Part shown: positions 43,784 through 54,095 of the stretch, piece after piece
How the letters are laid out: each line of letters begins with the position of its first letter
How positions within the stretch are numbered: position 1 is the stretch's first letter
Assembly: GCF_000620145.1 (NCBI RefSeq)
Contig: NZ_JHVM01000008.1
Span: 254,806-318,805 of the forward strand
Source: Deefgea rivuli DSM 18356
Lineage (GTDB): Bacteria > Pseudomonadota > Gammaproteobacteria > Burkholderiales > Chitinibacteraceae
Reading direction: 5' to 3'
Length of the DNA stretch: 64,000 nucleotides
Made by a program: the position numbers and the translations under genes
Notes under the pieces: generated by a model
What the model was told of the DNA's origin: nothing
What the model saw: the letters and a program-made list of their open reading frames with translations, nothing else
Databases searched by the model: none

Positions 43784-46381
43784 TCATGGCGCTGCAATCT
43801 GCTCTGGCGGCCCTGGACGGCCATAAAAATAGCCTTGAAACGCATCGCACCCCATTTGAGCCAATTTATCTCGCTGCGCAGCGGTTTCTACACCTTCGGC
43901 AATTACACGCAAATCCATGCTATGCCCCAGCGCAATAATCGTTTGCGCGATCATCGCATCATTCGGGTCTTGCAAAATATCCCGCACAAACGACATATCG
44001 ATTTTTAACTGCTCCAGCGGCAGCCGCTTCAAATACAGTAATGAAGAATAACCAGTGCCAAAATCATCCAGCGCAAAACGCACCCCCACCGCTTTGAGCG
44101 CGTTCATTTTCTCGATCACATCTTCGGCATCTCTGAGCAAAGTGCTTTCGGTCAGCTCCAATTTTAGCCGTAAAGGCTTGGCTCCCGTGCTCGCCAATAT
44201 GCCTTTAAGCATTACAACAAAGTCCGGCTGCGCGATCTGAAACGCACTGATATTCACCGCCAGCAACCAATTTTCGCTTTCTGCATGCTCGCTCCAGCGG
44301 CGTAACTGGCGGCAGGCTTGCTGCAGTACCCATTCCCCCAAGGGCACAATGATGCCGGTTTCTTCGGCCATTGGAATAAACACCGCTGGCGACACAATCC
44401 CCAGCCGTTCATGCCGCCAGCGCAGCAGTGCCTCAGCGCCAATGACGCGTCCGAAGAGATCGACCTGTACCTGATAATCCAGATAAAACTCCTCACGCGC
44501 CAACGCCTCGCGCAGGTTTTTCTCTAGCTCGGCCTGAATCGCCGCTGCAGCTTGCATTTCGGGGTCAAAAAAACAGGCGGTATTTCGCCCTGCCGCTTTG
44601 GCTTGATACATGGCCACATCGGCTTTTTTGAGCAGTTCATCGATGGCATCTTGCTCGCCCTGAAACACCACAATCCCAATACTGGGCGTACTGCGGTGCA
44701 CAATTTCATTCAAAGTATAGGGCGCACCGAGACTGGCTAAAATTTTATTCGCGATAGCTTTCGTTTGATTGGCCGCTTCAGACTCATAGATGCTCAGCGT
44801 TTCCAGCAGCACCACAAATTCATCGCCGCCCAAACGCGCCACGCTATCGCTTTCACGCACGCAAGACAGCAAACGCGCCGATACTTGCTGCAATAAAATA
44901 TCGCCAATATCGTGGCCATGCGAGTCATTGAGTTGCTTAAAATGATCCAAATCCAAAAACATCAGCGCACAAAAATAAGTACTGCGCGCCGATGCCACCA
45001 TGGCTTTTTTAATTCTATCCATCAGCAGGCGACGATTAGGCAGGCCGGTGAGCGGATCATAAAAAGCCAAACGGTGAATCTCTTGTGTACGCTGATGATC
45101 CAAGGTTGCATCGCTCACCAAACCAATAAAAATGGCCTGTCCAGCGCGCATAATCTTAGAGACGGATAAACGCATAGGAAACAGGCTACCGTCTTTGCGC
45201 CGCCCTTCTACCTCGCGCGGAACTCCAATAATTCGCACCTCGCCCGAATCAAGATGATTGTGCAAATAGCCATCGTGATGGCTCGCATGCGGCTCGGGCA
45301 TCAGCATAGCCACATTGTTGCCCAGCACCTCATCGACCGCATAGCCAAAGATTCGGCAGGCGGCGCGATTAAACGTCTCGATCAAGCCACGTGCATTGAT
45401 GGTAATCACACCATCGCCCATATTGTCGAGAATGGTTTGCGTGTGCTGAGCAGATTCAAGCTGCGCCAAACGATCTTGAGCCAGCTGCTTTTCGCTTAAA
45501 TCATGCTCAATCATCAGTCCCAGCAAATAAGCGCCGCGTTTAATCGCCTGTAATTCATTCGGCCGCGGCTCACACGGATAACGATGGTAATTGGCAAACG
45601 TCCCCAGCACCCGCCCTTTGGTAGACAAAATCGGGATCGACCAGCATGAAGCTAGGCCATGCTCCAAAGCCAAGCTGGCAAAATGAGTCCAAAACGGATG
45701 GCTGGCAATATCCACCACAATCGTGTCTTGCCCTGTACTGGCGGCATTCCCGCACGAGCCAACCCCCGCACCAATCGCAGTGCCGTCAATCTCCTGACAA
45801 TAAGCACGCGGCAAACTTGGCGCAACGCAATGCACCAAATGCTGCCCTGCTTCATCCAGCAATAAAACCGAGGCGATCACCTCGGGAAAAGTCGCCTCGA
45901 AACCGATCACAAATTGCTGCAAAATCTGCGGAAGCGGCACATCCGCCACCTGCAGCTTTAGCATTTCAAGCTCATGATCAATCTGCTGCTGAAATTGTTT
46001 TTGCTCTGTAATATCCAGCGTCGAGCCGATAATAAATAACGGTCGCCCCTGTGCATCAAATACCGGATTTTTAATTACATAACCAATCCGATTCTGCTGA
46101 AATTTCGCGCTCCAGAATGTCTCCTCATACGCCGCAGTCTGCTGACTAGCAAAAATTTCCTGATCTCGCCGCAAAAACCGCGCCCATTGCTCTGGCGGAA
46201 AAAACGAATAGATTTTTTCACCCTCAATCGACGCAAACGACACGCCCAAAGCGTCTTGGCAGGCTTTGTTCATCAGCAAAGCACGGCCTTGCGGATCTTT
46301 CACAAAGCATTGAATCGGCAAGGTATCCAAAAAATCACGAAGGAAATTGAGATTTTCTGCTGCTAACTTTTGTAATGGCAT
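43784..46381 (-). CDS. PAS-GAF-PAS-GGDEF-EAL cyclic-di-GMP signalling protein
   Basis: An 865-residue cytoplasmic protein with PAS (about 10-130), GAF (about 145-300), a second PAS (about 315-430; DNMGDGVITINARGLIETFN), GGDEF and EAL domains. The GGDEF domain has an intact LGGDEFVVLL and an inhibitory RxxD five residues before it (RESD). The EAL domain has an intact GAEALLRW and a DDFGTGYSSL loop. It may therefore both make and degrade c-di-GMP under control of its sensors. No TM segments were seen. A GTG at 46405 is an alternative start eight codons upstream; ATG 46381 is used. Confidence 0.92.
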   Translation of the reverse strand: MPLQKLAAENLNFLRDFLDTLPIQCFVKDPQGRALLMNKACQDALGVSFASIEGEKIYSFFPPEQWARFLRRDQEIFASQQTAAYEETFWSAKFQQNRIGYVIKNPVFDAQGRPLFIIGSTLDITEQKQFQQQIDHELEMLKLQVADVPLPQILQQFVIGFEATFPEVIASVLLLDEAGQHLVHCVAPSLPRAYCQEIDGTAIGAGVGSCGNAASTGQDTIVVDIASHPFWTHFASLALEHGLASCWSIPILSTKGRVLGTFANYHRYPCEPRPNELQAIKRGAYLLGLMIEHDLSEKQLAQDRLAQLESAQHTQTILDNMGDGVITINARGLIETFNRAACRIFGYAVDEVLGNNVAMLMPEPHASHHDGYLHNHLDSGEVRIIGVPREVEGRRKDGSLFPMRLSVSKIMRAGQAIFIGLVSDATLDHQRTQEIHRLAFYDPLTGLPNRRLLMDRIKKAMVASARSTYFCALMFLDLDHFKQLNDSHGHDIGDILLQQVSARLLSCVRESDSVARLGGDEFVVLLETLSIYESEAANQTKAIANKILASLGAPYTLNEIVHRSTPSIGIVVFQGEQDAIDELLKKADVAMYQAKAAGRNTACFFDPEMQAAAAIQAELEKNLREALAREEFYLDYQVQVDLFGRVIGAEALLRWRHERLGIVSPAVFIPMAEETGIIVPLGEWVLQQACRQLRRWSEHAESENWLLAVNISAFQIAQPDFVVMLKGILASTGAKPLRLKLELTESTLLRDAEDVIEKMNALKAVGVRFALDDFGTGYSSLLYLKRLPLEQLKIDMSFVRDILQDPNDAMIAQTIIALGHSMDLRVIAEGVETAAQRDKLAQMGCDAFQGYFYGRPGPPEQIAAP

Positions 46382-46405
46382 CCAGAACGCTACCTGTTCA
46401 AGCAC

Positions 46406-47478: not shown

Positions 47479-50400
47479 ATGACTCTGACCATTCGCTTGG
47501 CACAGCTTTTTTTACTGCTGTTGCTGACTTGCATCGCACTGGCAGACGATGATTTCGCAACGGATGAAGATCCGGTCCGAATGAGCAGCAGCGTCGCCAA
47601 AAGCACCTTGGCGCAAACATTACCTAGCAACGCCAAACCCGCCGTCGAAATCGACTATTTAATCCGCCGCCAACAAGCCGCCTACGTGGCGGGTGACAGT
47701 CAGGCGCGCATTAGCGCGCTGCGCCGCTTAGTTGAACTCACCAGCAGCGACAGCCAACCTTCCCGCTATTTGGGCTACCTTGCCACCGAGGAATGGCGCA
47801 ATGGCAATCAAAGCACCGCGCTTGAACTGGGTGAAAAATTACTCAAAGATCCCGGCTATTCGGCCAATGCACGCGCGGGCTATGCAGCGATTTTAGGCCA
47901 GCATTATTTATCGATGGGTAAAGATGCGAGCACGCTTTTGGCGCAAGCCGAACGTTTTAAACGCGAAGCCGCAGCGAGCGGAAAAACGAATGATGTCTTA
48001 TTTATCTCGGCGCAAATCGCCAGCCTGCGCTCCGCTATTTTGCGCCGCGAAGGCAATCTAGCAGCCGCCAATACTGAAATCCACGCGGCGCTGAATTTTG
48101 TGAACCAAGAAATCCAACGTGCGCGCAACATCACTAATCCCACGGATCGCAATGTCATCGCAGATCGCGCGCAACGCACGCGGGACGGCATTTTGCACAT
48201 CATGATTCGGCAGCAAATTGCAGAAGGAAAAAATATCGAAGCAGAAGCCACCGCACGTTTAGGCATGAAAAACATCCAAACAGAGCAACGCGGCGGCGCC
48301 AATCAAGGCGATTGGTTGGGTCGCTTAGCGCAAGCCAAACTGGCCCAACGCCGCTACACCGAAGCGGCTGATTTAGCGCAACAAGCAATTATCTTGCTGC
48401 AAAAAAATCCAGAAGGCCAAAGTTCCAACTGGCTACTTAATGCCCAAATGACTTTATTGCAGTCTTATTTTGGCTTGGCGCAATGGCAAAACGCCGATCA
48501 GCTCGCCAGCCAAATGCGCAGCGCCGCCAGCAATGATGAAGTCGCCCAAGCCCAGCTCGACAGCCCTATTTTGCGCGCCATTTTGGATTTGAATAACGAT
48601 AGAGTCGATGCCGCGCTCAAAACCATCGATGCCTCAGTGCGCTACCGCGCGCGCAATTACGGCGAAAATCACATTGCAACGATCGAAGCCAAAGCCGTTC
48701 GCGCCATGGTGTATCAAGCCAAAAACGAGCAACGCAAAGCGCTCAATGATTATACCGATGTATTTAAAGCCATTTTCTCGCAAGAAACCTCGTTTGCCGA
48801 TGCCGAGCCTGCCGGCCTACGCGGTAGCTATTTGCCACTGGCATTGCGCGCCTATTTGCAACTAGTGCAAAAGATCTATCAAGACAACGGCAATCGCCTG
48901 ACTGACAGCGATTTAATGAACGACAGTTTTCGCGTTGCCGATCGCTTACGTGCCAGCATTGTGCAACGCGCGCTCATCGATAGCGCGGCCAACCTCGCCG
49001 CCAGCACACCCGAACTCGCCGCTTTAATCAGCAAGGAGCGGCAACAGCAAAGTGAGATGCGCGAAAAAATCCGCCAAATCACGCAATTGCTCGAAATCGA
49101 CAAACAGCTCGATCAAGAACGGCGCGCCAAAGATCCCGCCAGCTACCCTGCCGCCGAAGAAAAAAAAGATAAAGAGCTCGCCAAACAACGCACCGAAGTC
49201 ATCAATCTAAACCGCCAGCAAATCATCGACTTGACCAATCAACGTGGACAAACGCTCAAAGACATCGCGCAGCGTTTCCCTAATTACCAAGCGTTGATCA
49301 ACCCCAAACCACCCACACTCAACCAAATCGGCAAGCTGCTCCAAACTGGCGAATCACTGATCAGCATTTACCCCAGCGCATCCGGCACTTTGATTTGGTC
49401 TATCTCCGCTGACGGCAGCAAAGCCTTTCACTTTTCTAGTCTGAATGACGCGCAAATTCACCGCTTAGTGAGCCAACTACGCAGCACGCTTGATATTGGC
49501 GACTTGCCCAATCCAGCCGAAGCGCATTTTGACTTTGCCGCTAGCTTTCAGCTCTACCGTGAACTCATTGCGCCGGTACTGAATCGTAAAGGCGACAGTG
49601 TCACTTTCGCCATCAGCGGTGATTTGGCGCAAATCCCATTGGCGACACTGACCACGCAAGCCAGCAGCGACCTCAAGACCGCGCCGTGGCTGATTAAAGA
49701 CATCGCGATCAATCAAATTGCATCCGTCGCCGCTTTTCAAGCGCTACGCAGCACGCCACACAGCACGGCCAGCCAAGCGTTTATTGGCTTTGGCGATCCG
49801 CTGTTTAAATTGCCCAGTAGCGTGGCGAGCAAACCCGCGAATGCAAAAAAATCCACGCCCAAAACCACGGCACTTGCAACTACGCCCACGGCGTCCAGCA
49901 AGCCTAATCCCGCCGTGCGCGCACTACTGCGCGCCAACCTCAATGAGGCAGCATTTGATTACGGTAAAGTCCCCGCGCTACCTGAAACCCGAGATGAAAT
50001 TTTGGAGCTGGCCAATCTACTCGGCGCAGACGTGAACCTTGATGTGTTCTTAGGCAGTGCCGCCAGCCGCAACAAGGTCATGACCAGCCCATTACTTAAC
50101 TACCGTATTGCCGCCTTTGCCACACATGGACTAAAGCCTGGCGATATACCCCTATTATCTCGTCCAGCACTCGCGCTTGCGGCAAATAACAATCCACAAG
50201 ACTCGCCCTTATTAACGCTCGACGATGTGCTCACGCTGAAACTCAATGCCGATTGGGTGATTTTATCGGCATGCAATACCGCATCGAATGATGGCCGCGC
50301 CGAAGAAGCGTTTTCTGGATTAACGCGGGGTTTTTACTTTGCTGGCGCACGCGCCGTGCTGGCAACCCAATGGGCGGTTGAAACGCAATCAGCCAAACTG

Positions 50401-50556
50401 CTGGTCACTGGCACGCTGCGCCACTACAGCAGCAATCCCAAACTGAGCCGAGCGGCGAGCTTGCGCTTAGGACAGCTGGATTTGATCGGCAACAGCCAAT
50501 TTCAGCATCCCTTCTTTTGGGCTGCGTATGTGACATCCGGCGATCCGGGAAGATAA
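47479..50556 (+). CDS. Exported TPR-CHAT protein (caspase-like protease)
   Basis: A 1025-residue protein with an N-terminal signal-like helix (about 1-21, ending CIALA). TPR-like helical repeats span about 40-430, then a coiled-coil region (about 480-600; SKERQQQSEMREKIRQIT). The C-terminal CHAT domain (about 640-1025) has its predicted dyad His883 (AAFATHGLKP) and Cys932 (VILSACNTAS), with GLTRGFYFAGARAVLATQW. CHAT proteases cut partner proteins in response to signals, as in CRISPR-linked Craspase and HetF. The start ATG 47479 has a GAGGTGAGG site. First gene of a tight operon. Confidence 0.88.
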   Translation: MTLTIRLAQLFLLLLLTCIALADDDFATDEDPVRMSSSVAKSTLAQTLPSNAKPAVEIDYLIRRQQAAYVAGDSQARISALRRLVELTSSDSQPSRYLGYLATEEWRNGNQSTALELGEKLLKDPGYSANARAGYAAILGQHYLSMGKDASTLLAQAERFKREAAASGKTNDVLFISAQIASLRSAILRREGNLAAANTEIHAALNFVNQEIQRARNITNPTDRNVIADRAQRTRDGILHIMIRQQIAEGKNIEAEATARLGMKNIQTEQRGGANQGDWLGRLAQAKLAQRRYTEAADLAQQAIILLQKNPEGQSSNWLLNAQMTLLQSYFGLAQWQNADQLASQMRSAASNDEVAQAQLDSPILRAILDLNNDRVDAALKTIDASVRYRARNYGENHIATIEAKAVRAMVYQAKNEQRKALNDYTDVFKAIFSQETSFADAEPAGLRGSYLPLALRAYLQLVQKIYQDNGNRLTDSDLMNDSFRVADRLRASIVQRALIDSAANLAASTPELAALISKERQQQSEMREKIRQITQLLEIDKQLDQERRAKDPASYPAAEEKKDKELAKQRTEVINLNRQQIIDLTNQRGQTLKDIAQRFPNYQALINPKPPTLNQIGKLLQTGESLISIYPSASGTLIWSISADGSKAFHFSSLNDAQIHRLVSQLRSTLDIGDLPNPAEAHFDFAASFQLYRELIAPVLNRKGDSVTFAISGDLAQIPLATLTTQASSDLKTAPWLIKDIAINQIASVAAFQALRSTPHSTASQAFIGFGDPLFKLPSSVASKPANAKKSTPKTTALATTPTASSKPNPAVRALLRANLNEAAFDYGKVPALPETRDEILELANLLGADVNLDVFLGSAASRNKVMTSPLLNYRIAAFATHGLKPGDIPLLSRPALALAANNNPQDSPLLTLDDVLTLKLNADWVILSACNTASNDGRAEEAFSGLTRGFYFAGARAVLATQWAVETQSAKLLVTGTLRHYSSNPKLSRAASLRLGQLDLIGNSQFQHPFFWAAYVTSGDPGR

Positions 50557-50559
50557 TCC

Positions 50560-52446
50560 ATGCCTGCCATCAGCCAGCGCCTTTGGATCATGTTCATTGC
50601 TGCTTTGGCGCTGCTGATTGCCGAATTGAGCCTGCGGACACAGCAACTTGCAACGCTCAATCACATTTATTCCGATAGTTGGCATCAATGGGCAGGCCAG
50701 CGTTACACACCGCAGCACGTGGTACTCATTACCGTGGATGATGCGTCTTTAGCCGCACAAGCCGATACGCCTTTGGTTTTTTGGAGCCCTTATTTCGCGC
50801 GTGCCGCCGCAGTACTGACGCAAGTGGGCGTGCGACGGATTGGCCTTGATTTTCTCCCTGCCATTACCCCTGAAACTTGGCTCAATCGCACAGGGCTGAG
50901 TCGCGAGGCATTGCCGCAGCCGCTGCAAAACTACGACTTGGCGTTTCGCCAAACGCTCAATCAAGGTCAGCTGATTCTCGTTGCTAGTTTTCAAGTTGAT
51001 GCACAGGGCGGACAAGATCAACTACTACTGCCGCACCCCGATTATTTACTGTCCTTACCCAATTTAGACATCCCGCGCTACGTTGGTTTTGCCAATTTGC
51101 ACCCCGACGCTGATGGCGGAGTGCGGCGATTTATCAGTAAACCAGCACTCAATTTAGCGCCCGAACTACGCAGCGGCGCGCCGCAATATGCGCTGGCCGC
51201 GCTGATGGCGGGCGCCCCCGATAAAGCGCGCAGCGGCCTTATCCATTTCGCCGGGCCGCCCGGTAGTTTTCCAAGTTTGCCGATTTCACGGCTGCTCGCC
51301 CCCAATGCCGCACAAGATCCTGCGGTGCGCGCCCTCGCAGGCAAAATCATCCTGATCGGCGCGCATTTCCAAGGCATGGGCGATACACACAGCACGCCTT
51401 ACAGCCGCGCGATGTTGAGTTTGGCGGGGCAAAATATGAGCGGTGTAGAAATTCACGCCAATATTATCGAAACGCTGTTGGCCCGCAATCCGACCCAAAA
51501 CCTCGCGACCTTGCCACGCCTAATTTTACTCACCGTTTTATTCATCAGCGCCACGCTGCTCTTTCAGCGCCTCGCCCTCAGCTGGGGCGTGCTGCTTGCC
51601 GTCGCGTTTTTGATTGGGCTATTGCTGATCGGCCAAGGATTGTTTTATTTTGGATTTTTACTGCCCGCCGCCGATGCACAGTTGGGTCTACTGATTTGCT
51701 GGGGCTTGAGCTACGGACGGCGCTTTACCCGCGAAACACGCGAGCGCCGCAAAATTCAGCAACTGTTTAGCCGCTACGTCTCCAGCGCAGTGCTGAACAA
51801 AATTATGGCGCAAGACAAGCTGCCAGATTTAGGCGGCGAAAGTTATCAGCTCACAGTACTGTTTGCCGATATTCGCGACTTCACCGCGATTAGCGAGCAA
51901 CTCAGCGCGCACGAAGTCGTTGAATTTCTAAATGTGTATTTCGAGCAAATTTGCGCGCCGGTGTTTCTATACGGCGGTAGTATCGATAAATTTATTGGCG
52001 ACGCCATCATGGTGCAATTTGGCGCGCCGCTCGCCACGCCCGATCATGCGCGCCGCGCGGTGCAAACTGCGCTGGCGATTCAAGCGGCTGCACAGCAGTT
52101 TGCGACATGGATGGAGACACGCTTTGCAGGGCGCAATTTACCGCCATTTCGCATCGGCATCGGCCTGCACACCGGCGTTGCCGTCGTCGGGCATATTGGC
52201 AGCCAGCGACGGATGGAATACACGGCAATTGGCGATACGATTAATCTGGCAGCTCGAATTGAAAGCGCGACCAAAGAGCTGGGCTGCACGCTGCTTGCCA
52301 GTAGCGAAACGCTGGCTGCTGCGGGTGGCGGCATTGTGACAGGCAGGCAAAGCCGGATTAACGTCAAAGGCCGACAGCAGAGCGTCGATGTCATCGAAAT
52401 CCTCGACAGCCGTGTCGAGCAAGATGTACGACCCACCGTGGCATAA
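50560..52446 (+). CDS. CHASE2-domain class III adenylate cyclase
   Basis: A 628-residue membrane enzyme. An N-terminal TM helix (about 7-25) is followed by an extracytoplasmic CHASE2 sensor (about 40-310) and three TM helices (about 320-395). The cyclase domain (about 425-600) has metal-binding Asp437 and Asp481 (FADIRDF, KFIGDAIMV), Lys477 and an Asp in AIGDTINLAAR as the adenine-specifying pair, and the transition-state Asn/Arg in NLAARIE. The residues predict cAMP production. It starts three bases after the CHAT gene stop, so co-translation is likely. Confidence 0.9.
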   Translation: MPAISQRLWIMFIAALALLIAELSLRTQQLATLNHIYSDSWHQWAGQRYTPQHVVLITVDDASLAAQADTPLVFWSPYFARAAAVLTQVGVRRIGLDFLPAITPETWLNRTGLSREALPQPLQNYDLAFRQTLNQGQLILVASFQVDAQGGQDQLLLPHPDYLLSLPNLDIPRYVGFANLHPDADGGVRRFISKPALNLAPELRSGAPQYALAALMAGAPDKARSGLIHFAGPPGSFPSLPISRLLAPNAAQDPAVRALAGKIILIGAHFQGMGDTHSTPYSRAMLSLAGQNMSGVEIHANIIETLLARNPTQNLATLPRLILLTVLFISATLLFQRLALSWGVLLAVAFLIGLLLIGQGLFYFGFLLPAADAQLGLLICWGLSYGRRFTRETRERRKIQQLFSRYVSSAVLNKIMAQDKLPDLGGESYQLTVLFADIRDFTAISEQLSAHEVVEFLNVYFEQICAPVFLYGGSIDKFIGDAIMVQFGAPLATPDHARRAVQTALAIQAAAQQFATWMETRFAGRNLPPFRIGIGLHTGVAVVGHIGSQRRMEYTAIGDTINLAARIESATKELGCTLLASSETLAAAGGGIVTGRQSRINVKGRQQSVDVIEILDSRVEQDVRPTVA

Positions 52447-52464
52447 GATCACTGGAGAATCAAA

Positions 52465-53064
52465 ATGCGTACGCTCATTTTCGCCATTCTACTCATCATC
52501 GCCCCACTCGCCTTCGCCACCGATATTGCACTCATCACGCAAGTGCAAGGCGATGTGCGCCTGATCAAAGCCCAAGGCGACGCGCAAAAAGCCCTTCCTT
52601 TACTCAAACTCTCGATTGATGATCGCTTGGTTTTAAATAAGGCAGCGCAAATTCAAATCGTTGTCTTTAGCCAAAATCAGCAAGAAACATGGCGCGGCGC
52701 AGGTGAAGTTCAAATCACAGAGCACGGCGGAGCGAGCAGTAATCTCAAACCCGAGCGATACGCCTTACCCGCCATCGTCAGCCGCCAGCTCGCCAAAATA
52801 CCCGCCACAGGCGACACGACCCGCAGCGGCATGGTCGTCATCCGCGCCCTACCCAACCCAGAAAAACGACGCCAGTTAGAAACTGAATATCAGGCGCTCA
52901 ACCCCAACGATCTCACCGCGCAGATTTACTACTTAACTGGGCTGATCGAACTCAATGACATGGAGCGCGCCGAAGAAGTCCTCAGCGCGCTGAAACAACA
53001 AAACCACAATCCCAATGCGCAAGCGATTGTGAAGCACTTTAGTCCTTTGATTACGCAACATTAA
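52465..53064 (+). CDS. Periplasmic FecR-like protein linked to CHASE2
   Basis: A 199-residue exported protein with a signal peptide ending AFA (about residue 18). A FecR-like beta domain (about 20-115; ITQVQGDVRLIKAQG, DDRLVLNKAAQIQIVVF) precedes a helical TPR-like tail (about 130-199; LTAQIYYLTGLIELNDMERAEEVL). FecR domains often accompany CHASE2 cyclases, so this may sense a periplasmic signal with the cyclase sensor. It follows the cyclase by 18 bases with GGAGA upstream; last gene of the operon. Confidence 0.78.
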   Translation: MRTLIFAILLIIAPLAFATDIALITQVQGDVRLIKAQGDAQKALPLLKLSIDDRLVLNKAAQIQIVVFSQNQQETWRGAGEVQITEHGGASSNLKPERYALPAIVSRQLAKIPATGDTTRSGMVVIRALPNPEKRRQLETEYQALNPNDLTAQIYYLTGLIELNDMERAEEVLSALKQQNHNPNAQAIVKHFSPLITQH

Positions 53065-53234
53065 AGAACAAGCGTTTAGGTGAGAATAAAATCGGATGGG
53101 TAAACTGGGATAGCTGTTGTCAACCAGAAACGGATTATTTGCACATTGCACAAACCCACTGTAAGCACGTAAACAAAAATATCCCCACGCGACTTTTTAC
53201 CTTAATGGCAACAACCAAGAATGACACAATAAAT

Positions 53235-54095
53235 ATGACCGACTCAGACATTCCACAGTACTTATACAAGTACAGAAGCGCAGATAGTTACTCACTCGAC
53301 GCTTTGTTTAACTCGTATGCAGTATTTACTGGGCGAAAAAACTTTAACGACTTGTTTGATTCAAACATCATGTTGATCAAGCCAACACCCAAAGATATTA
53401 AACAACTTAGGGATAGTCACAGAGGTAAAGCCTTCGATCATTTTTCGCGTTTTCTCAAAGGCACAGTATTTTCCAAATTTGGTAAAGATCAAATTCACAT
53501 AGCTAAAAAGCGCTTGGAAAGCTTAATAGACGAGTACTTATTTTACTGCGTTGCGGAGCACGACAACAACAATCTAATGTGGGCGCATTATGCAAATAGT
53601 CATAAAGGATTTTGCATTGAGTTTAACTCCAGAATGCTTGGCTCTCCATCCAAAGTTAAGTACCAAAAAACAATCCCAGAGTTTCGCCTAACTGACGCCT
53701 TTGATTTGACGTTTTCAGGCGAATGGAGATTAGAAACGGCATTCGATAACAGTGATCGCACCGGTCAGATAATTTGGGATGCACTCAGAACTAAGCTCGT
53801 TGAATGGGAGTATGAAAAAGAGTACCGAGTACAACCACCAGAGCGCGACATACAGCATCTACCACCGCCAAACGAAACAGTTCCTATCCTGCGGTATGAT
53901 GAAACTTTCATCGCGTCGATTATTTTTGGCTGCCGTATGCCCGACGCAGACAGAGTTAAAATTGTTCAGGGAATGCGCTATCCCGTTAAGTACAAAAAAG
54001 CAGTTAAAGAAACCAGCACCATCGGTATATACGAACTAACCGATGAAGAACGTATTCGCTATGGAGTTTCAACCAACCTCGGTACGTTAGGCTAG
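53235..54095 (+). CDS. DUF2971 domain protein
   Basis: A 286-residue soluble protein of the DUF2971 family, recognised by LYKYRSADSYSLDAL near the N-terminus, MWAHYANSHKGFCIEFNSR and WEYEKEYRV. Family function is unproven, and some members occur near phage-defence or abortive-infection genes. The composition is AT-richer than its neighbours and it is framed by repeats, which suggests recent acquisition. The start is uncertain: ATG 53205 is also in frame, and neither has a clear ribosome site; 53235 fits the family N-terminus. Confidence 0.8.
   Translation: MTDSDIPQYLYKYRSADSYSLDALFNSYAVFTGRKNFNDLFDSNIMLIKPTPKDIKQLRDSHRGKAFDHFSRFLKGTVFSKFGKDQIHIAKKRLESLIDEYLFYCVAEHDNNNLMWAHYANSHKGFCIEFNSRMLGSPSKVKYQKTIPEFRLTDAFDLTFSGEWRLETAFDNSDRTGQIIWDALRTKLVEWEYEKEYRVQPPERDIQHLPPPNETVPILRYDETFIASIIFGCRMPDADRVKIVQGMRYPVKYKKAVKETSTIGIYELTDEERIRYGVSTNLGTLG

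Follow-up and report, generated by a model that had tools for sequence, protein, structure and literature searches.

Why should a caspase-fold protease, a receptor-type adenylyl cyclase and a small exported protein be encoded in one tight operon? This question is raised by a locus of Deefgea rivuli DSM 18356 lying in a stretch of 64,000 nucleotides, hereafter the window (contig NZ_JHVM01000008.1, positions 254,806 to 318,805; coordinates below count from its first letter). Three plus-strand genes follow one another there in the order TPR-CHAT protein, CHASE2 cyclase and third protein, with spacers of 3 bp and 18 bp, and their coordinates (47479-50556, 50560-52446 and 52465-53064) agree with the closely spaced single-strand trio described in a previous annotation made from the letters alone (the sequence-only reading). 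Based on the comparative analysis reported here, we consider it about an even chance (roughly 0.5) that the three genes form one envelope signalling module, in which the secreted caspase-fold protease would act on or with the CHASE2 receptor or the third protein, its small companion, and so set the level of cyclic AMP (cAMP).

The recurrence of the gene association was determined in 274 genomes drawn evenly from the class. CHAT was found in 37 genomes, in 75 rows that include three second pieces of one gene and correspond to 71 loci besides the window (60 taken best-scoring first, then 11, among which no CHASE2 was found). Our own hidden Markov model called CHAT in 68 of these 71 loci, and the other three are without CHASE2. 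A CHASE2 gene was present within 8 kb of CHAT in 10 of the 71 loci, each time with a cyclase domain, while only about 0.70 would be expected by chance (66 CHASE2 matches over about 127 Mb in 37 genomes), which amounts to an enrichment of about 14-fold (Poisson P of about 4e-9); the distance limits used throughout, 8 kb and 5 kb, are our own choice. Named genomes gave a similar picture, with CHASE2 in 11 of 80 CHAT loci chosen by likeness to CHAT alone, eight of these with a cyclase, and with hosts that include Burkholderiales, Rhodospirillales, Ferrovibrio, Azospirillum and Syntrophobacter. In the small family and order sample, which was the source of the first leads, five of 10 CHAT loci carried CHASE2. 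One locus from another family of the order (L020, G038:C50; loci are cited by such handles where needed) has CHAT, adenylyl cyclase and third gene in the same order on one strand, with identities of 31%, 43% and 28%, respectively. On these counts the CHAT-CHASE2 linkage is well supported and does not look like chance. The sequence-only reading had asked for a neighbourhood survey and held that rarity of such neighbours elsewhere would speak against a common system; the 10 loci observed against about 0.70 expected point to a recurrent association.

The first gene (47479-50556, plus strand) encodes a TPR-CHAT protein of 1025 aa, a candidate exported cysteine protease of caspase fold. The CHAT domain (residues 691-1022; 49549-50544) was recognized by PF12770 (2.3e-41) with a score of 142.6 bits against a cut-off of 24, which places the protein in the CHAT peptidase family. 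His883 and Cys932, the pair named in the sequence-only reading, stand at exactly these positions (codons 50125-50127 and 50272-50274); His is found in 154 of 155 and Cys in 157 of 157 non-gap rows of the aligned family, and the complete dyad is intact in 153 of the 154 aligned CHATs that cover both columns. Because the dyad is kept to this extent, its conservation argues for active enzymes that cleave rather than merely bind. An AlphaFold model (mean confidence score pLDDT 87.6) shows an extended stretch of helical repeats and, after it, a caspase fold, which together with the dyad agrees with the CHAT peptidase family. The TPR repeats reported earlier correspond to an all-helical TPR-like region modelled at residues 37-609 (47587-49305), mostly with high confidence, the sole TPR profile match (TPR_12, residues 367-428) being below the cut-off. 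In structural alignments the model resembled the CRISPR-associated TPR-CHAT/Csx29 (Z 29.0, root-mean-square deviation (rmsd) 7.1 over 505), separase (Z 27.1, rmsd 3.2 over 318) and gingipain (Z 18.5, rmsd 3.6 over 280). A PDB search with the single CHAT sequence gave no sequence relative, and a search with a 58-row profile gave TPR-repeat chains among the best 60 of 119 matches. The structure alignment comprised 57 of 63 non-redundant CHATs plus that of the window. The signal peptide noticed earlier is seen as a hydrophobic segment at residues 1-19, with a putative ALA/D cleavage site, assigned by eye, that would end the peptide at residue 22 (47479-47544).

The second gene (50560-52446, plus strand) encodes a CHASE2 receptor adenylyl cyclase of 628 aa (PF05226, 2.9e-33; PF00211, 2.2e-22). 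Hydrophobic segments were found at residues 1-19, 315-333, 334-352 and 353-371. A CHASE2 domain predicted to be periplasmic (residues 20-330; 50617-51549) is thus flanked by membrane segments, and a class III cyclase domain follows (residues 430-607; 51847-52380), which is the architecture of a CHASE2 receptor cyclase. Residues D437, K477, D481, T555, N562 and R566 align with the solved adenylate cyclase 1wc1, so that the metal-binding aspartates and adenine-specific residues of the previous annotation are present; we take D437 and D481 to hold the metals and K477 and T555 to contact adenine. The product is probably cAMP. Since each of the three encoded proteins begins with a hydrophobic segment, CHAT, CHASE2 and the third protein are expected outside the inner membrane and the cyclase domain inside.

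For the third gene (52465-53064, plus strand), the claim of a periplasmic FecR-like/TPR protein was confirmed only in part. A hydrophobic N-terminal segment indicates that this companion of 199 aa is exported, while a FecR identity was rejected by sequence: PF04773 matched none of 19 proteins (the companion and 18 relatives) at E up to 0.5, a search in which HMMER filters drop most matches above 0.1, and hhalign gave a probability of 5% towards 21 FecR-type domains collected with our own profile, seeded from two PF04773 matches in the window's genome. FecR was also absent among the listed fold matches, which excludes nothing. The TPR-like C-terminal part (residues 144-188; 52894-53028) is suggested by a TPR_19 match below the cut-off (E 1.3e-4) in a region of low model confidence, and a PDB profile search gave one designed TPR at E 1.4. 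The model, built on an alignment of 6 rows, is confident only at residues 20-102 (52522-52770), an all-beta domain similar to the 'Cell surface anchoring domain' of an adhesin, 5ix9 (Z 10.7, rmsd 3.2 over 76; runner-up Z 4.3); Foldseek superposed the two with an rmsd of 1.6 over 69 columns, at an E of only 0.017. The LapA retention module NF033682 matched the companion at E 0.01 with 16 bits against a cut-off of 50, too low for membership; across the family of 19, a single protein gave a match at E up to 0.5. Viral homologues were also sought; none of nine pattern matches was a relative by tblastn.

Cyclases of the window type (E up to 1e-80) were found at eight loci of the genomes searched (the window, L020, L030, L031, L032, L033, L034 and L221). 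A member of the companion family lies within 7.2 kb in all eight and adjoins the cyclase in seven. CHAT is present in two (the window and L020) and a secreted C14 caspase in three others. In L033 and L034 the C14 caspase is fused to an FGE-sulfatase domain and its gene shares four bases with that of the companion; in L030 the C14 gene is separated from the companion by 2 to 5 kb and from the cyclase by at least 10 kb. C14 genes also stand beside CHAT and CHASE2 in L040, L057, L060 and L091, and His and Cys are present in all 14 C14 proteins found. All of these C14 cases were met in named genomes or in the samples of the family and order; class-wide, no C14 was seen within 8 kb of CHASE2 on one contig among the matches listed, which were compared by eye. 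The pattern suggests that cyclase and companion are the steadier pair, which different caspase-fold proteases can adjoin. Two of the C14 loci deserve separate description. A Limnohabitans metagenome-assembled genome (L040:1-12289) carries, in one row, a CHASE2 gene truncated at the end of the contig, an SH3-C14 caspase gene and a tandem of three CHAT genes. L030 (G055:C1:208500-228000) spans about 15 kb, mostly on a single strand, with several exported-looking proteins, the companion, the cyclase and two C14 caspases, one recognized by Pfam and the second by our own profile only.

A possible reader of cAMP was found more often where CHAT is linked to CHASE2. A gene for a cyclic nucleotide (cNMP)-binding protein lies within 8 kb at eight of 26 linked CHAT loci and at one of 132 unlinked ones (P 1.6e-6), in a tally that excludes matches below 70 bits, a cut-off set after the matches had been seen; with the weaker matches included, the unlinked count rises to three of 132 (P 2e-5). 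By Pfam, four of the eight are CRP-type regulators with a helix-turn-helix domain (L022, L025, L060 and L140) and four are other cNMP-binding proteins (L017, L103, L114 and L139). In L022 the order on one strand is CHAT, CRP, adenylyl cyclase and companion. An unlinked CHAT with another cyclase (L130) likewise has a CRP-type regulator with a helix-turn-helix domain. The companion family is near nine of 26 linked and two of 132 unlinked CHATs. All of these contrasts, and those given below for the same two groups, are inflated, as unlinked loci lie partly on shorter contigs and linked ones on longer stretches by construction. In L114 (12313-14127) and L204 (5254-7122) a cNMP-binding domain is fused to a patatin phospholipase, with a CHASE2 cyclase gene in the same stretch; such a fusion could possibly be a lipase under direct cAMP control.

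Some loci depart from the pattern of the window. CHAT loci such as L064, L068, L102 and L115 show another partnership, without CHASE2, with small exported-looking and zinc-ribbon-like proteins; these partners, named by eye, form two clusters of 25 loci each, mostly loci in common. The window's own genome encodes a second, short CHASE2 cyclase with an M48 metallopeptidase close by (L190, G000:C3:334500-350500), and short CHASE2 cyclase genes near an M48 peptidase were also found in L036, L183, L186, L189, L191 and L192; an SH3 protein lies between the two genes in L036.

Several results weigh against a common module. Sixty-one of the 71 class CHAT loci are without CHASE2. From the CHASE2 side, CHAT was near seven of 22 short genes (up to 700 aa, chosen by eye) and none of 25 long ones (chosen by hand), both from the matches listed, so that most CHASE2 genes examined stand apart; the short/long contrast itself (P 0.003) is biased and allows no conclusion from length, because the sets were hand-picked and long cyclases with CHAT occur in the CHAT-side sample (L134, 1103 aa; L138, 766 aa). 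In a tree built from 151 CHAT domains, the label for CHASE2 linkage took 20 changes, while shuffled labels took 25, so that its clustering is only slight. Three of the eight window-type cyclase loci (L031, L032 and L221) have neither CHAT nor C14 within the stretch examined; since the companion is kept there, the protease would not be essential to the cyclase-companion pair. C14 is near four of 26 linked and six of 132 unlinked CHATs, which is not significant (P 0.06). An export-like segment is found in 20 of 24 linked CHATs with an uncut N-terminus and also in 90 of 114 unlinked ones (internal stretches used as control were positive in 19 of 132), so that export is general among TPR-CHATs and secretion is no mark of the linked ones. 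Finally, none of the seven cNMP-binding genes of the window's genome lies on the operon's contig; a cAMP receptor may thus exist in this genome, unlinked to the operon. The tree can also be read for the history of the link: because the label needs 20 changes, at least 11 of them forced by starred branches, the link has, judged by this tree, been gained or lost many times with slight clustering. The tree was built with fasttree and has several long branches; CHATs with fewer than 200 aligned residues were excluded, 'linked' meant within 5 kb, and 19 of the 151 rows were left unlabelled because their flanks were too short.

With both sides taken together, the module can be pictured as follows. 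The TPR-CHAT protease and the small beta/TPR companion would share the periplasm with the CHASE2 domain of the transmembrane cyclase. The TPR region of the protease, the companion or both would receive an envelope signal, be it damage, a ligand or a protein that is secreted or exposed at the surface. The protease would then cleave, or when inactive merely bind, the companion or the CHASE2 domain and so change the output of the cyclase, and cAMP would act through a CRP-type or other cNMP-binding protein, as encoded near the cyclase in some sister loci. The genes, their domains and export signals, the conserved catalytic residues, the recurrence and the added cNMP-binding and C14 genes are read from the sequences; from them we infer contact between the proteins, cleavage, its substrate and its direction, along with cAMP as the product. 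The proposed order, from envelope signal to protease and companion, CHASE2, cAMP and CRP, follows from the predicted topology, because cAMP would be made inside and the protease lies outside. For the same reason the protease more likely acts upstream of the cyclase or beside it, or is controlled only at the level of transcription, than as a direct target of cAMP, which is cytoplasmic. The sequence-only reading had drawn a path from a periplasmic sensor to both cAMP and a caspase-like protease; its association of the parts recurs, while its protease as second output does not agree with this topology. In a more far-reaching form, which we offer only tentatively, protease-gated receptor cyclases would be widespread, with an interchangeable secreted CHAT or C14 protease that cuts the CHASE2 ectodomain or the companion in the periplasm and thereby switches cAMP and a dedicated CRP.

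The genomic setting of the operon was also examined. Its G+C content (52-56%) is not far from that of neighbouring genes (53.3% and 53.8%, for example) or of the window (50.5%), so base composition does not clearly point to a recent arrival from elsewhere. The CHAT query matched nine of 61 genomes, with its own genome counted in, and none of six congeners. Among 43 genomes of the family, a CHAT-family match was found in six and a close cyclase (E up to 1e-80) in six, with both in the window's genome only; the operon is therefore accessory. A promoter scan gave no site upstream of the operon and a single one inside the end of the CHAT gene, where 4.5 sites were expected in shuffles. Five neighbouring proteins were compared with Pfam and two with PADLOC. 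Directly downstream (53139-54095), 74 bp from the operon and with a G+C content of 41.5%, lies the gene of a DUF2971 protein that matches the PADLOC candidate defence family PDC-S31 (5.4e-41). Upstream on the opposite strand (43784-46405) a PAS-GAF-PAS-GGDEF-EAL protein is encoded.

The main rival explanation takes the protease as an output: CHASE2 and the companion would sense the envelope, cAMP-CRP would set how strongly the operon and surface genes are transcribed, and CHAT would mature or shed secreted surface proteins, such as two-partner secretion (TPS) products, with no control over the cyclase. This would suit another branch of CHAT-CHASE2 cyclase loci, where DUF928 is near six of 26 linked and none of 132 unlinked CHATs and TPS-domain secreted proteins are encoded at four of 26 linked and four of 132 unlinked loci. 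There appear to be two flavours of such loci, the companion type of the window and a DUF928 type, to which a TPS-domain secreted protein may or may not be added (DUF928 in L127, L132, L133, L139, L140 and L142). The cNMP-binding regulators of some loci and the likeness of the companion's beta domain to an adhesin anchoring domain point the same way. However, the TPS difference is weak (P 0.026), with TPS genes beside unlinked CHATs too, and no TPS or adhesin domain was found in the five scanned neighbours of the operon, so we regard this explanation as rather unlikely for the locus, though it deserves to be kept in view.

It is improbable that the TPR-CHAT fold serves the receptor as an inert scaffold, that is, as a periplasmic sensor or binding platform without proteolysis. 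With Foldseek, the best match to the CHAT model was DdvA (E 2.8e-11; Z 21.7, rmsd 5.1 over 553 by structure alignment), a transmembrane anti-sigma factor and hence a protein of membrane signalling, which is described in the available part of PMC4374960 as the anti-sigma of an extracytoplasmic function sigma factor; in the window this fold forms a separate soluble protein beside the cyclase. A scaffold should lose the dyad in some lineages, but it is retained in nearly all aligned CHATs and in every C14 protein found. Very unlikely, too, is a mere neighbourhood, in which two or three accessory genes would travel together without any function in common. CHAT genes do mostly stand apart, as do most of the CHASE2 genes examined, but the enrichment, the many separate associations on the tree, the tight spacing and the order kept in another family are all at odds with it. 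An anti-phage operon combining a Pycsar-like cyclase with a caspase-like killer is highly improbable and was not supported, despite a score of the cyclase with PADLOC PycC models (6.8e-26), the PDC-S31 match downstream and an accessory-like absence from the six congeners, because the PycC match covers only the cyclase part (residues 393-569) of a protein with CHASE2 receptor architecture, no TIR or membrane effector was found among the neighbours scanned, the PDC-S31 gene differs in G+C content and is set apart by its spacing, and an exported protease should not reach cytoplasmic targets.

Each part of the proposed module is known from elsewhere. The CHASE2 cyclases of S. meliloti (CyaD1, CyaD2 and CyaK) respond to a plant protein by way of NsrA, an outer-membrane barrel, and supply cAMP to Clr, a regulator of the CRP family (PMC13001267), likewise a route from a CHASE2 receptor cyclase through cAMP to a CRP-family regulator. 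The available parts of these reports mention no CHAT or caspase protease there, and FecR-domain and TPR proteins appear as Clr targets that are reported to be dispensable for signal perception (PMC5498481). The BiofilmReg operon of Burkholderia (PMC5192318), as far as described in the part available, also couples a CHASE2 receptor with an exported partner; it has a LysM-FecR protein, a CHASE2 histidine kinase and a response regulator and no protease, whereas the operon of the window has a cyclase and no FecR, and no response regulator was found among the scanned neighbours. FecR-type domains (own profile seeded from PF04773) occur in 14 of the 25 long-CHASE2 stretches and not in the operon. 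The window's genome has one arrangement like the known pairing, a long CHASE2 gene immediately preceded by a FecR gene whose start, judged by eye, looks LysM-like (L220, G000:C14). A cyanobacterial metacaspase-CHASE2 fusion of Trichodesmium (PMC3501461) likewise joins a caspase-fold protease to CHASE2; in the part of the report available, however, it is one fused protein of C14 and not CHAT type, its protease is predicted to be cytoplasmic and no cyclase is named. TPR-CHAT/Csx29 (Craspase) of type III-E CRISPR has the same two-part TPR and CHAT fold, but is part of a CRISPR effector, while the TPR-CHAT of the window has an export signal; neither gRAMP/Cas7-11 nor other Cas proteins were found among the five neighbours scanned, a search that did not extend to the rest of the genome.

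In the LapA/LapD/LapG system, a periplasmic cysteine protease and a membrane protein tied to cyclic di-GMP (c-di-GMP) govern adhesin retention. This is a comparison of how such a system works only; the 5ix9 fold match suggests a likeness to a retention-type beta domain, but the protease and receptor families differ, the messenger is c-di-GMP and not cAMP, and the companion has 199 aa and there is no giant adhesin. A paper that treats CHAT together with a CHASE2 cyclase was not found in the open-licence literature, most subscription journals being outside this scope, and the pairs 'CHASE2' and 'CHAT domain' or 'orthocaspase' and 'adenylate cyclase', like the combination 'FecR', 'caspase' and 'TPR', gave no co-mention there. 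Against this background of known parts, the new element would be that a secreted caspase-fold protease accompanies CHASE2-cyclase systems as a recurrent and exchangeable component.

To our knowledge, the role of exported CHAT and C14 proteases in bacteria is largely open. The input of CHASE2 is called unknown in the available parts of PMC5192318 and PMC10581220. A caspase-fold protease that recurs on the predicted membrane side of CHASE2, with a cAMP reader in some copies, allows both questions to be addressed in a single testable circuit. This circuit may carry signals from the envelope to the control of genes along a route that is little known and, if the proposal is true, a protease-gated receptor cyclase would be a bacterial counterpart, in its logic, of the protease-activated receptors.

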